Source: a virus
IMG/VR virus record: IMGVR_UViG_3300035182_002201
Location: 1-20,141 of that record
Direction: 5' to 3' (one strand)
Length of the DNA stretch: 20,141 bases
Shown here in pieces: positions 4,308 through 9,580 of this stretch; within the stretch, counting starts at the first letter, position 1, and every line of letters begins with the position of its first letter. Under the pieces are notes generated by a model that ran no database searches, had not been told where the DNA came from, and saw nothing but the letters and a program-made list of their open reading frames with translations. The position numbers were made by a program, and so were the translations under genes.

Positions 4308-4538
4308 TTATTCAATTTCAGATGTTACGTCTTGTTCTTTTCCAGAAACTGGTTTAACAGAATCAATTTTTGCAAAAATATCTTTGATACGTGAATATCC
4401 TTCGATTTCTGTTTTTTTATCCTTGATATAAGGATGCGATTTTACCTTCTGATCTAGAACTTTTTTTACTGTTGCTGCGAATGCTGTAAATTCACCATTC
4501 TTTGCAAGATCGAGAGTTTCGGGAGATAATTCTTCCAT
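4308..4538 (-). CDS. Small prohead core protein (gp67/gp68 position)
   Basis: This 76-residue charged protein begins MEELSPETL and lies between portal and protease, the place of T4 genes 67 and 68 (core proteins). The motif FTAFAATVKKVLDQKV resembles short core proteins of T4-like phages. T4 gp67 is about 80 residues and far more acidic, so assignment rests mainly on position. The start at 4538 is preferred over an in-frame TTG at 4562. AAAAGGC lies at proper distance before this ATG, while the TTG has no ribosome-binding site and would sit at or beside the predicted start of transcription from the box at 4566-4573. Confidence 0.7.
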   Translation of the reverse strand: MEELSPETLDLAKNGEFTAFAATVKKVLDQKVKSHPYIKDKKTEIEGYSRIKDIFAKIDSVKPVSGKEQDVTSEIE

Positions 4539-4565
4539 TTTTTGCCTTTTGTTTTTATTCAATGT

Positions 4566-4573
4566 TATTTATA
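4566..4573 (-). promoter_or_regulatory. T4-type late promoter box (exact TATAAATA)
   Basis: The minus strand carries the exact T4 late consensus in the short gap after the portal gene. It would start RNA near 4560, about 22 bases before the core protein ATG at 4538, and could drive the core, protease, scaffold and capsid genes. Confidence 0.65.
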
Positions 4574-4591: not shown

Positions 4592-6163
4592 TTAATAACT
4601 ACTGCTATCTTCTTCAGTTTTATAAAATGCTGAATATTTAGGATCTTTTTTTTCACTTTCAATCTGTTCTGACATTTCAGCAATTTCATCATCACTCATT
4701 TTTAGAATATTTTTAAATGTGAATTCAACACTAAAGATTTTACCTATAAGATCCGCAATATTATTATATGCTTCAATTTTCTTTCCGAACATCTCACTTT
4801 CAAGATTTTGAATGAATGTGTTCTCTTTACTAAAATATAAATCAAATGAATCATATATCTCATTCCATTCATCTATAGTAATTTTGCCTTGTGCAATAAG
4901 ATGTCTATATATAAGTTCCTCAAATAATTGAAGGAATTTTTTACGTAATCTTTGTACGTATGCGAAGAATTTTACTTCATCACGTTGAATACTTGTTGCT
5001 GTAAAATCAAATTCTGAATTACTACCATCAACTTCATTATTGATACGTGACATTGGTATTTTTAATGCAGTATATAATTTTTTCTTGAAATAAAGAACAT
5101 CACCTAATTCACCCAAGTTTCCAGTTTCATCTAATGTATCAACAGTTGTGCCACGTCCTCCTGAGCGATTTGGAAACCAATAATCCTCAACTAATGTAGT
5201 TACATGATTTTGATTACTAATAGTACCTTTTTCAACATCATAAAACTTTTTATATTTGAAATTTGCTTTTACTTTATCAATTGCAGCTTCTGCTTTTTGA
5301 TGAGGAAGATCCCCTACGTCAACGTTAAAAACACGTCGTGATATTGAACGACTGAAACGCATAGGAATCAACATATCTTCAACAGTCTTTAATTGATTTG
5401 CAGGTTTGATTGCTGTATATAATTCACTTAAAATAAGTTTTTCTGAACCACTACGTGATCTTTTAAAACTAGGTTCAACATACACTCCACTATCAATTTT
5501 GAATACTTCATCAACCTTGAATTTTACTTCTGCTGTTGTCTGAGTTGTAAAACCTGTGTATGAATCTATTTCCTCAATAATATATGCCCATTCCTGTTTA
5601 GTTTTATCAAAATATAAATCAAGAGGTGTTAAAATATTAAGTTTTATAATACCACGTGTAATATCACTGTTATCATATATAGTCTGTACGTTTAATTGTC
5701 CATCAACAAACCACTGATTAATCAATGAATATGCATTTGTATCAAAACGAAGTAGTTTAGACATTTCATCAAATGCTTCAGTTAGCATTTTTTTTGTTGC
5801 AGATGAGGTCTCTGAATTATTGAAATTAATTTTTACTAATTGTTCGTTACCAGAAGTAAATACAATTTCATTAATAATTTCAGAAACTGCTGCAGATACA
5901 TCTGGATGTGTTACAATATCACGAAATGTTTCAATATATCTTTTTTGTTCTGCTAGCGATGAAGACATTAAATCACGAGATGTTCTATCCGTCACATTAT
6001 CAGTATTATCGAAAAATCCAATTGTTGGTGATATTTCATCTGAGAAATTTTTACTGAATGATCGTGCGATTACAAGTTGATCTGTATCAAAGTCAGATAA
6101 ATTTTTATCGTCTTTTTGCGCAGGAATAAATGTTTTTTTAAGCGACTCATAGATAGTTGCCAT
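4592..6163 (-). CDS. 20: Portal vertex protein (T4 gp20-like)
   Basis: Starting at the ATG at 6163 (MATIYESLKKTF), the protein has 523 residues, almost the same as T4 gp20 (524). It forms the dodecameric ring at one head vertex, the entry for DNA and the join to the neck. The most telling stretch is residues 328-373: YWFPNRSGGRGTTVDTL, then GELGDVLYFKKKLYTALKIPMSRI, which closely follows T4 gp20. The reading frame is open further upstream to 6250, but that part would overlap the terminase start, and AAAGGAAACTTA just before 6163 fixes the start. It is first in the leftward head cassette and diverges from the terminase across a shared promoter element. Confidence 0.96.
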   Translation of the reverse strand: MATIYESLKKTFIPAQKDDKNLSDFDTDQLVIARSFSKNFSDEISPTIGFFDNTDNVTDRTSRDLMSSSLAEQKRYIETFRDIVTHPDVSAAVSEIINEIVFTSGNEQLVKINFNNSETSSATKKMLTEAFDEMSKLLRFDTNAYSLINQWFVDGQLNVQTIYDNSDITRGIIKLNILTPLDLYFDKTKQEWAYIIEEIDSYTGFTTQTTAEVKFKVDEVFKIDSGVYVEPSFKRSRSGSEKLILSELYTAIKPANQLKTVEDMLIPMRFSRSISRRVFNVDVGDLPHQKAEAAIDKVKANFKYKKFYDVEKGTISNQNHVTTLVEDYWFPNRSGGRGTTVDTLDETGNLGELGDVLYFKKKLYTALKIPMSRINNEVDGSNSEFDFTATSIQRDEVKFFAYVQRLRKKFLQLFEELIYRHLIAQGKITIDEWNEIYDSFDLYFSKENTFIQNLESEMFGKKIEAYNNIADLIGKIFSVEFTFKNILKMSDDEIAEMSEQIESEKKDPKYSAFYKTEEDSSSY

Positions 6164-6177
6164 TAAGTTTCCTTTAA

Positions 6178-6185
6178 TATAAATA
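6178..6185 (+). promoter_or_regulatory. Late promoter box for terminase (exact TATAAATA)
   Basis: An exact T4 late consensus on the + strand, with a predicted leader of about 28 bases before the terminase ATG at 6219. It faces the box at 6199-6206. Confidence 0.65.
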
Positions 6186-6198
6186 ATTGTTATTGTAT

Positions 6199-6206
6199 TA
6201 TTTATA
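6199..6206 (-). promoter_or_regulatory. Late promoter box for portal (exact TATAAATA)
   Basis: An exact T4 late consensus on the minus strand, with a predicted leader of about 30 bases before the portal ATG at 6163. It lies in the right arm of the inverted repeat, next to the terminase ribosome-binding site. Confidence 0.65.
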
Positions 6207-6218
6207 CAAAGGAAACTT

Positions 6219-7937
6219 ATGACAAGACACGATATAGACGATGTAATCAATAGATTGAAACTACCACGTGATAATGAAGGTTATTACGTTGATGCTTTTG
6301 ATAATAGGGTTTCATTTAATGGAATTAGAACTATTAAACCAGCATTTACACAATTAAAATTAACTAATGAACACGCTGAGGAAATATTCAAATGTGCCAT
6401 GAGTTTTCAATATTTCAGAGAAAATTATTGTATCATTTTAACTGATAAAGGTTATGCACGTCCCCAACCACGGGATTATCAATCAAGATTAGAAGATAAT
6501 TTATTAAATAATGATAGAAATTTAATTTTATTTGGTCGTCAATCAGGAAAGACAGTTACTGTTGCAACATATATTTTATGGAAAGCATTATTTTATCTTG
6601 GTGATGAGATGACAATTGGTATTGCAGCTAATAAACAAGCTATGGCAATTGAGGTTCTTGATAAAATTAAAAATATATTTGTCAATTTACCATTCTGGTT
6701 AATGACTGGTGTAAATTCATGGAACAAAAAAACCGTTGAGTTTGAAAATAAAGTACGTATTCTAACAAGTGCAACAAATGGAGATTCATTTCGTGGATTT
6801 ACATTAGCATTATTATATATAGATGAGTGTTCATTTATTCGTCCTACAATATGGCAAGATTTTGAGGACTCAGTATTTCCAACTGTTACTGCTGTCGAAG
6901 GTTCTCAAATTATTATTTCTAGTACTCCTAAAGGTATGAATCATTTTTACGATATGGTACAAGGAGCAAGATTAAAAACAACTAATTATATATTATCAGA
7001 AATGGAATGGGATGAAGTTCCTGGTCGTGATAAAGCTTGGAGAGATAATATTATAGCGGATAAAGGGCTTGCATATTTTAATCAAAATTTTGGTTGTGCA
7101 TTTGAAGGTTCTGATAGCACATTAATATCTCATCTTGCCTTACAACGTATGATATCAAAACAACCATTACATATCAATAAATTTATTGATGGTTTGCGTG
7201 TTTATGATATGCCTGAGGAAAAATCAAAATATATTTGTGCAGTTGATAGTGCTAAAGATGGTCTTGATAAAATTGCTATCCAGATGATAAATGTGACAAA
7301 ATTCCCATTCATACAAGTGGCATCAGCAAATCTCGATATAAGTTATCTTAAACTTGCTGGTCCTCTAACTGAGTTATGTAAGGAATATAATAATGCATTT
7401 TTAGTTGTAGAAAATAATGAAGGTGCAGGTCAATCACTTGTAGATTCTGTTACGAACACATACGAGTATGACAATGTATATAAGGATGCTCCCGGAAAAG
7501 ACGGAAAAATGCGTAGATATTTTGGGTTTAGAACAACGTCACGTTCACGTAAGGTAACATTAAGTTTGTTACGTACATTTCTTGAAAATGATAGATTAAT
7601 ACTAAAAGATCATGCAACGATTGATGAATTCTATCATTTTATCGATATAAAAGGAAAATATCAGGCAGATGATGGTTATCATGATGATCTTGTAATGGCA
7701 TTAGCAATTAGTTTTGCACCTATTAAAGATATAAGAAACCTTGAAGATCAGAGAAAATTTATTGACTCATTATTTGAAGAGGACAATGAAGATGATAAAG
7801 AGGATACAACTTTTGAAGATGTTTTTGCATTTGGTTCATTTGATGAAATGGATGATAGTATTCACAGAAATGAATTCGCAGATTGGAATTCATTACGTGA
7901 GATTGATAATGTATATGTAGATAGTAATTTTGGTTAA
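6219..7937 (+). CDS. 17: Terminase large subunit (T4 gp17-like)
   Basis: This 572-residue protein is the ATP-driven packaging motor and head-filling nuclease. The ATPase half shows Walker A FGRQSGKT (residues 105-112), Walker B LLYIDE (198-203, Asp202 and Glu203) and the coupling motif SSTPKG (234-239). The RNase H-like nuclease half shows the acidic residues Asp343 (CAVDSAKDG), Glu398 (LVVENNEG) and Asp489/Asp490 (GYHDDLVMA). T4 gp17 has 610 residues. AAAGGAAACTT precedes the ATG. The acidic C-terminal tail (EEDNEDDKEDTT) is Asp/Glu-rich. Its strand is opposite to every complete neighbour, unlike T4, where gene 17 is co-directional with the portal. No small subunit (gp16) gene is visible here. 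Confidence 0.97.
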   Translation: MTRHDIDDVINRLKLPRDNEGYYVDAFDNRVSFNGIRTIKPAFTQLKLTNEHAEEIFKCAMSFQYFRENYCIILTDKGYARPQPRDYQSRLEDNLLNNDRNLILFGRQSGKTVTVATYILWKALFYLGDEMTIGIAANKQAMAIEVLDKIKNIFVNLPFWLMTGVNSWNKKTVEFENKVRILTSATNGDSFRGFTLALLYIDECSFIRPTIWQDFEDSVFPTVTAVEGSQIIISSTPKGMNHFYDMVQGARLKTTNYILSEMEWDEVPGRDKAWRDNIIADKGLAYFNQNFGCAFEGSDSTLISHLALQRMISKQPLHINKFIDGLRVYDMPEEKSKYICAVDSAKDGLDKIAIQMINVTKFPFIQVASANLDISYLKLAGPLTELCKEYNNAFLVVENNEGAGQSLVDSVTNTYEYDNVYKDAPGKDGKMRRYFGFRTTSRSRKVTLSLLRTFLENDRLILKDHATIDEFYHFIDIKGKYQADDGYHDDLVMALAISFAPIKDIRNLEDQRKFIDSLFEEDNEDDKEDTTFEDVFAFGSFDEMDDSIHRNEFADWNSLREIDNVYVDSNFG

Positions 7938-7939
7938 TG

Positions 7940-7961
7940 AATTGTGATTTTATTCACAATT
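7940..7961. terminator. Small hairpin between convergent terminase and fibre unit
   Basis: AATTGTGA and TCACAATT form an 8-pair stem around a 6-base loop in the 27-base gap between two convergent stop codons. No good T-run follows on either strand, so it may be a weak bidirectional terminator or an end-protecting structure. Confidence 0.45.
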
Positions 7962-7964
7962 TCA

Positions 7965-8609
7965 TCACATTATTGTAATATATTTAACTAACCATATATC
8001 AGATTCATTATTTAAAGAACATTTTACTTTAAGTGTTTGTTCTGAACCTTTTAAATTTTCAATTGTGAATGTACTTTTATTTTTGATTATTTTTTTAGAT
8101 GTTTTCTGACCACCAATTTTAATAGTCTCAGGATTTTTATCTTGTTGTTTAACATATGTTGAACTAAAATGATCAATATCATCAATAGGATCTTCAATTA
8201 TTAGATAAAACTTATATGATGTTTCACCTTCATTTAATGAAAATTTACCTGATTGTTCATCAAGTGTACAATTCACACCATTTACTGCAAGGAATACTAA
8301 TCCCATTTCTTTACGTGTAAAATCATATACAGGAAAACTATCTAAATAATCATCAACGCACATAATTGCTAATTGATAATCTTCTTTAGAAACTTTACCA
8401 AGATTAATATCTTTTAAACCATCATTATGAGAGACCTCAATTGGAAGATGTTCAGAATACATATATCCTTTTATAATTCCTGATTGTTCATTAACAAAAA
8501 TCATCAAAGATTTATTTTCATTGTATTCATCAACAAGTATTGTTCTTTGAGATTCAAATATGTGTTGAAATGAATTTCTCTCTTCTTGTGTTTCATATAA
8601 TTTAATCAT
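7965..8609 (-). CDS. Unrecognised protein, translationally coupled to U32-like gene
   Basis: I do not recognise this 214-residue protein. Its ATG overlaps the stop of the gene upstream (TAATG at 8607-8611), and GAGGA lies before it inside that gene, so the two are probably made together. It starts MIKLYETQEERNSF and has no membrane segment or signal peptide that I can see. The first 160 residues look like a mixed globular domain (FVNEQSGIIKGYMY, MGLVFLAVNGVNC). After a Lys/Gln-rich linker (about 155-178) comes a short beta-rich end that could be a small Ig-like or fibre-tip domain. It is the last gene of the tail-fibre unit and ends at a hairpin facing the terminase. A structural or fibre-modifying role is inference from position only. 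Confidence 0.7.
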   Translation of the reverse strand: MIKLYETQEERNSFQHIFESQRTILVDEYNENKSLMIFVNEQSGIIKGYMYSEHLPIEVSHNDGLKDINLGKVSKEDYQLAIMCVDDYLDSFPVYDFTRKEMGLVFLAVNGVNCTLDEQSGKFSLNEGETSYKFYLIIEDPIDDIDHFSSTYVKQQDKNPETIKIGGQKTSKKIIKNKSTFTIENLKGSEQTLKVKCSLNNESDIWLVKYITIM

Positions 8610-9580
8610 TATTTTTCCTCTTTTAAAAATTTTTCAAGTAACACATCACAATAATTACATTCATGACATTTATTTTTACAGTTAATAGTATGTTCAAAAA
8701 AATTATATTCATCAAGCACATGTGCATTAACAGTTTTGTAGATGTAATGAGGATTTGTATCCAATGCAACTGAAAGTGATATATTTTTATTATCAAACAT
8801 ATACGCTTTTAATCTAGACCTCACATCTTCGATTGTTTTTCCTCTACATGCAATTTTAAAGTAATTTATACCCATATCACGATATTTATTGATATAACCA
8901 GGAATGATAAATGGTGATTTCAATGTTAATGATTTATTACTTTCAAAATCTGAACTACATGTAAGAACAGCAAAATTATTGTTTTTTGTTAAATCATGAT
9001 TTGATAATGCATCATCACAAAATTGCTTATAAGGACAATTTGCAATACATCCCTCATTAACTAACAATGTTGTTGTATAACCATTAGTTTTACAATATTG
9101 TATAATTTTTTCTAATTCATCTTTATTTCTATTCAATGATCTATCAAGCATAATGTGTTTAAATTTAAAAAACGAAACATATTGAATAACATCATCTAAC
9201 GTTTTCAATTTATTATTAACAGAATTTTTAATAATAATTTTTTCATTCAATTCTTGAAATTGAATTGATTTCATAATAGCAGTATTGTTTATAGTTAACA
9301 TCTCAACACCAAGTGTATCAATAATTTTAACAATATCATTTAAACCAGATTCAGTATAAGCATTTTCATTATATGTTGCACCATTAAGAACAAGATGAAG
9401 TTTTACACCTTTTGATTGAATTTTTTTCAATTCATAGAACATCTTTTCATTAAACCCGGTAACTCGTGCTGATGCTGTGTAGGCATTTGGTATTGAAAAA
9501 TAAACATCGCTAATTTTATCATACGTATCAATTTCTTCAAATATCTCACTCAATCCCTCTGTATAACCAATGCTAAACAT
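8609..9580 (-). CDS. U32-peptidase-like, Cys-rich putative Fe-S protein
   Basis: This 323-residue protein resembles the U32 group (COG0826; relatives UbiU/UbiV, TrhP, RlhA). Residues 23-66 (DVYFSIPNAYTASARV, FNEKMFYELKKIQSKGVKLHLVLNG) follow the usual U32 pattern of strand, AR-x-FN, helix, then G-x-K-(V/L)-x-(V/L)-x-(L/V)-N. Residues 115-148 follow the later S-x-x-N...LDR strand-helix pattern. Cys178, Cys182, Cys188 and Cys208 could hold a 4Fe-4S cluster as in UbiU/UbiV, and a second set, Cys301, Cys305, Cys308 and Cys311, ends the protein. Known relatives act in oxygen-independent ubiquinone hydroxylation or RNA hydroxylation; some are called collagenase-like, but protease activity is poorly supported. 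An AAGGAT ribosome-binding site precedes the ATG. It lies in the tail-fibre unit 9 bases after its upstream neighbour. The fold assignment is by eye; substrate unknown. Confidence 0.6.
   Translation of the reverse strand: MFSIGYTEGLSEIFEEIDTYDKISDVYFSIPNAYTASARVTGFNEKMFYELKKIQSKGVKLHLVLNGATYNENAYTESGLNDIVKIIDTLGVEMLTINNTAIMKSIQFQELNEKIIIKNSVNNKLKTLDDVIQYVSFFKFKHIMLDRSLNRNKDELEKIIQYCKTNGYTTTLLVNEGCIANCPYKQFCDDALSNHDLTKNNNFAVLTCSSDFESNKSLTLKSPFIIPGYINKYRDMGINYFKIACRGKTIEDVRSRLKAYMFDNKNISLSVALDTNPHYIYKTVNAHVLDEYNFFEHTINCKNKCHECNYCDVLLEKFLKEEK

Follow-up and report, generated by a model that had tools for sequence, protein, structure and literature searches.

A palindrome between the divergent portal and terminase genes of a phage as a probable pair of face-to-face T4-type late promoters

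The portal and large terminase genes of the viral record IMGVR_UViG_3300035182_002201 (IMG/VR; the whole stretch analysed, positions 1 to 20,141 of the record and 20,141 nucleotides long, is referred to as the window) diverge from a gap of just 55 nt, and direct reading of the sequence reveals that this gap is filled by an inverted repeat. The question arises as to why two packaging genes should be separated by such a palindrome. The minus-strand gene (4592-6163) encodes a portal protein of the gp20 type of 523 aa (PHROG 213, E=6.3e-125; PF07230, T4-type portal, E=3.1e-117), and the plus-strand one (6219-7937) a large terminase subunit of the gp17 type of 572 aa (PHROG 5989, E=5.9e-58; PF03237, E=4.7e-18). 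At the DNA level, similarity to known phages is confined to a short piece of the terminase gene. The closest named relative by protein is phiKT1024, in which the portal and terminase genes are far apart; this suggests that their pairing is specific to the lineage of the window phage.

The initial annotation had described a near-perfect inverted repeat with arms of 23 and 22 bases, each embedding a late promoter box and a ribosome-binding site, and both statements are borne out. The left arm (6165-6187) is AAGTTTCCTTTAATATAAATAAT and the right arm (6197-6218), read on the opposite strand, is AAGTTTCCTTTGTATAAATAAT; the sole mismatch (AA versus G) falls between the Shine-Dalgarno sequence (SD) and the box, and pairing continues for one further base pair (6164/6219), so that the complete repeat spans 6164-6219, with arms at 6164-6187 and 6197-6219 and a 9-nt loop. 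A repeat search returned the same arms, split in two pieces. With a local Watson-Crick repeat score of 18, against 12 for the runner-up and 11-13 in Markov sequences, this is the strongest inverted repeat of the window. When the 76-nt region was folded as RNA, values of -20.8 (plus strand) and -27.1 kcal/mol (minus strand) were obtained (z = -5.4 and -8.6, respectively, with no shuffled sequence as stable), and no other 76-nt stretch of the window folds as stably as this region does on the minus strand. The search of the element against Rfam gave no match.

Each arm contains an exact copy of the octamer TATAAATA together with the hexamer AAAGGA. The box serving the terminase gene lies at 6178-6185 (plus strand) and its SD at 6208-6213, while the box serving the portal gene lies at 6199-6206 (minus strand) and its SD at 6170-6175; the two boxes face each other across 13 nt. 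T4 late promoters consist of the TATAAATA octamer located at -13 to -6 (PMC1524935). The application of this rule to the window places the predicted RNA starts at 6191 (plus, terminase) and 6193 (minus, portal), i.e., 2 bp apart, with predicted leaders of 28 nt for the terminase and 30 nt for the portal.

Is the octamer likely to act as a promoter in this phage? By chance, 5.35 copies would be expected in the window; three are present, and all three are located upstream of a gene and on the correct strand. The third one (4566-4573, minus strand) is found just past the portal gene and before a small ORF, for which the TTG start called by the program at 4562 is probably wrong, an ATG near 4538 being likelier. 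When the window was considered together with two related 77-kb contigs (L023/G001 and L026/G002), 26 out of 36 copies of the octamer fell 20-55 nt before a start codon, versus about 0.8 expected; for five rearranged octamers used as a control, the figure was 19/314 (summed from listed counts). This placement supports a late-promoter role of TATAAATA in the lineage of the window phage. Sigma-70-like matches in the region are as numerous as in shuffled sequences (31 versus 31.3), and a match at chance level overlaps the site. A search for gp55, gp33 and gp45 in the related contigs, which are fragments, yielded nothing above noise, and gp55 was also missed in Campylobacter phage NCTC12673.

The same portal/terminase junction was retrieved in three further sequence versions from viral contigs (L022-L024, L025-L027, and L028). 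In all four versions, that of the window included, the genes are divergent, both boxes and both SDs are maintained, and the spacer measures 12-13 nt, with an overlap of 2-3 nt between the predicted RNA ends. The proposal of two opposed, overlapping T4-type late promoters whose RNAs would start within a few bases of each other is thus supported. The extended palindrome, on the other hand, is absent from the three further versions. The initial annotation had indicated the loss of symmetry in close relatives with divergent genes as evidence against its reading: in L022-L024, whose proteins are 91-93% identical to those of the window phage, this is in part the case, as the symmetric bases outside the SD are gone and the genes still diverge (on the terminase side, AATAATCC is found where the window has AAGTTTCC), and what remains are the signals for promoter and SD. 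The conserved symmetric bases are exactly those of the promoter boxes and SDs.

The stability of the hairpins was then compared with a null model in which boxes, SDs, and start codons were kept fixed and the filler was shuffled. The window hairpin lies above this null (P = 0.02 and <0.0025), whereas those of L024, L026, and L028 do not differ from it (P = 0.19-0.82); among the other junctions analysed, only RB49 4|53 exceeds it (P about 0.01). Since the symmetry beyond the signals is lost in the relatives, and since the hairpins of these relatives are at the null level, the palindrome is mainly the by-product of identical box and SD sets arranged in mirror order on the two strands. These data also bear on the suggestion that the palindrome is a site recognised, as dimeric DNA, by a regulator or by a packaging protein such as terminase. 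The long symmetric arms and the adjacency to the terminase gene would suit such a site; nevertheless, its outer symmetry is not shared by close relatives, the conserved symmetric bases coincide with transcription and translation signals, and the same layout occurs at junctions devoid of packaging genes. A protein-binding role of the palindrome is, therefore, not supported and is to be regarded as very improbable indeed.

A different function for the hairpin might be a two-way translational gate operating only late, in which the RNA reading through the junction would hide the SD and start codon in the hairpin, while the late-started RNA, beginning in the loop, would be freely translated. In the predicted read-through RNAs, i.e., the two stable folds reported above, SD and AUG are paired with the opposite, promoter-carrying arm, whereas the late-initiated RNAs fold with only -3.1 and -0.5 kcal/mol and leave the SD open. 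It is known that the T4 genes e, soc, 49, and I-TevI are controlled by a mechanism with the same anatomy (PMC3014915): as in the window, the late box is embedded in the 5' arm and the SD in the 3' arm, and the late RNA (in the window, according to the predicted starts) is devoid of the 5' arm. In these T4 genes, however, the arrangement works in one direction and an early read-through RNA is known, while in the window it would work in both directions and the hairpin strength is not conserved. The excess stability of the window hairpin over its fixed signals speaks in favour of the gate; against it stand the ordinary hairpins of the relatives, the lack of a same-strand upstream gene that might feed an early read-through, and a possible bidirectional stem-loop between the terminase gene and the convergent operon. 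On balance, such a gate seems unlikely.

On the basis of these observations, the element is very probably a pair of opposed promoters of the gp55 (T4) type sharing one initiation region. It is known that the T4 late polymerase recognises only a -10-like box and that its activator is the gp45 sliding clamp, located upstream. In the window, the only element that each promoter requires (TATAAATA) would be embedded in the 5' leader of the opposite gene, and the RNA polymerase carrying the late sigma factor would melt one and the same stretch of ~20 bp whichever way it is oriented, the terminase RNA starting rightward at ~6191 and the portal RNA leftward at ~6193. Since the base pairs required by one open complex would also be required by the other, only one complex could exist at a time, and each round of initiation would proceed in one direction. 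We infer the RNA starts and the dependence on a gp55/gp33/gp45-like machinery; a steric exclusion between opposed polymerases is plausible, and it may affect the output if the late promoters of phages reach the strength that this takes.

In T4, activation takes the direction set by the nicked strand, because the activating sliding clamp is loaded with a polarity (PMC2988020). One might imagine that the polarity of nick or fork on each DNA copy selects, through the clamp loaded in replication, between the synthesis of portal RNA and that of terminase RNA, the palindrome silencing the RNA that crosses the junction. We consider this a long shot, even though, if true, it would represent a two-way insulated switch, used all across the T4-like phages where late genes diverge.

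The comparison with known systems adds the element as a new case to the T4-type late promoters, and its arrangement is one found in T4 itself. The divergent late genes 4 and 53 of T4 are separated by 47 nt, and this gap contains two exact, mutually facing TATAAATA boxes, each lying in the leader of the other, with the SDs at the edges of the gap, as in the window; differently from the window, the spacer is 7 rather than 13 nt, so that the RNA ends do not overlap, the genes are others, and the symmetry is shorter. Since the T4 late system has been fully reconstituted and its activator acts with a polarity, 4|53 is suited to direct tests of the competition between polymerases at facing promoters. 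The T4 26|51 junction also has late boxes in opposite orientation between divergent late genes, but these are directed outward and have 4 bp in common (TATTTATAAATA), with starts ~23 bp apart. Bidirectional sigma-70 promoters (PMC10268837, PMC12825309) share with the window a nearly symmetric DNA, two mutually exclusive polymerase orientations, and divergent RNAs; they rely, however, on one shared -10 element, with back-to-back starts ~18 bp apart, while the window has two separate facing boxes at 13 nt from each other and predicted starts separated by 2 bp. The element was not assigned to this class, the shared symmetric -10 and the start distance of ~18 bp being absent. In the window, a promoter of a well-known type, present twice, accounts for a conspicuous palindrome between packaging genes.

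In order to assess how widespread the layout is, other T4-like phages were considered. T4 harbors only one exact face-to-face TATAAATA pair within 30 nt, that of the divergent junction 4|53; close versions are found at T4 inh|segE, RB49 4|53, and RB49 inh|uvsW, so that facing late boxes at 4|53 are common to T4 (77349-77371) and RB49 (64545-64566). In Campylobacter phage NCTC12673, an exact facing pair is located upstream of the portal gene. Divergent gaps of 1-100 nt number 11 in the two 77-kb relatives; in eight of them, (N)ATAAATA occurs on both strands, and in six of these eight the boxes are face to face. In a sample of IMG/VR, 31 of the 112 usable face-to-face hits were at divergent gene starts, against 0/121 for a scrambled octamer (Fisher P=1e-11, a value that overstates independence, since one phage family recurs in the sample). 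Most of these divergent junctions include a gp4-like head-closure gene, and the three pairs that were checked combine head closure with the baseplate tail tube cap. No sharp preferred spacing between the boxes was found across phages, the values ranging from 0 to about 25 nt; this wide variation speaks against a strictly common start site as something that the layout requires in general. The scrambled octamer replaced a control scan (ATATTTAT N0-30 ATAAATAT) that was discarded because it contains ATAAATA cores and caught genuine outward-facing late junctions.

Hence, judging from the sequences, the facing-box layout is not specific to portal and terminase and is common at divergent late-gene junctions in T4-like phages; a compact solution, in which facing late promoters start their RNAs at almost the same place, recurs from T4 to distant T4-like phages. 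In a library of non-subscription papers, searches on overlapping or divergent T4 late promoters retrieved nothing specific, and no paper discussing the layout as a class was encountered; an older T4 description may exist elsewhere. This distribution also concerns the proposal that mutual exclusion evolved as a dedicated control of portal/terminase stoichiometry, keeping portal and packaging motor in balance. The overlapping start sites make exclusion likely, and, in the bidirectional sigma-70 promoters, transcription that is strong one way can repress that in the opposite direction (PMC12825309); yet, the competition mattered in E. coli at high initiation rates only (PMC12825309), and exclusion by itself sets no ratio. 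Moreover, the layout serves many other gene pairs, such as gp4 with a baseplate gene, inh with segE or uvsW, and the portal with a small ORF, and its recurrence at unrelated pairs argues against a dedicated balancing function, which is unsupported by the present observations and which we find hard to credit.

Some further observations concern junctions of a different kind. Four contigs matching ATATTTAT-N16-ATAAATAT (L273, L275, L283, and L298) embed another divergent late junction of other T4-like phages, in which two outward-facing ATAAATA boxes lie 16 nt apart and the start codons follow the boxes by a few nucleotides; this suggests almost leaderless late mRNAs. The genes flanking this junction are presumably those of the neck proteins gp13 and gp14. 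In NCTC12673, the nearly perfect palindrome TATAAATAACCTTTTAAGGTTATTTATA (GU296433, 32919-32946) lies between gp25 and gp45 and contains late boxes that face each other; its flanking genes are on the same strand, leaving one box without a gene to serve.

In the window itself, the stem-loop at 7939-7965 (AATTGTGA...TCACAATT) separates the convergent ends of the terminase gene and of the downstream minus-strand operon; it is possibly a two-way terminator, with no clear T run. The gene at 8609-9580 (minus strand), placed in a late tail/fibre cluster and adjoining an unmatched 214-aa gene (7965-8609), exhibits cysteine-rich motifs and weakly resembles a phage 'peptidase' family (PHROG 5757, 1458). 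Lastly, the plus-strand ORF at 1-969, open at the window edge and with no match in a Pfam search, is composed of ~50-residue repeats (FYGGYxS...LLSPTAVLVQAETSVGTAR) and resembles a repeat-built surface or fibre protein.
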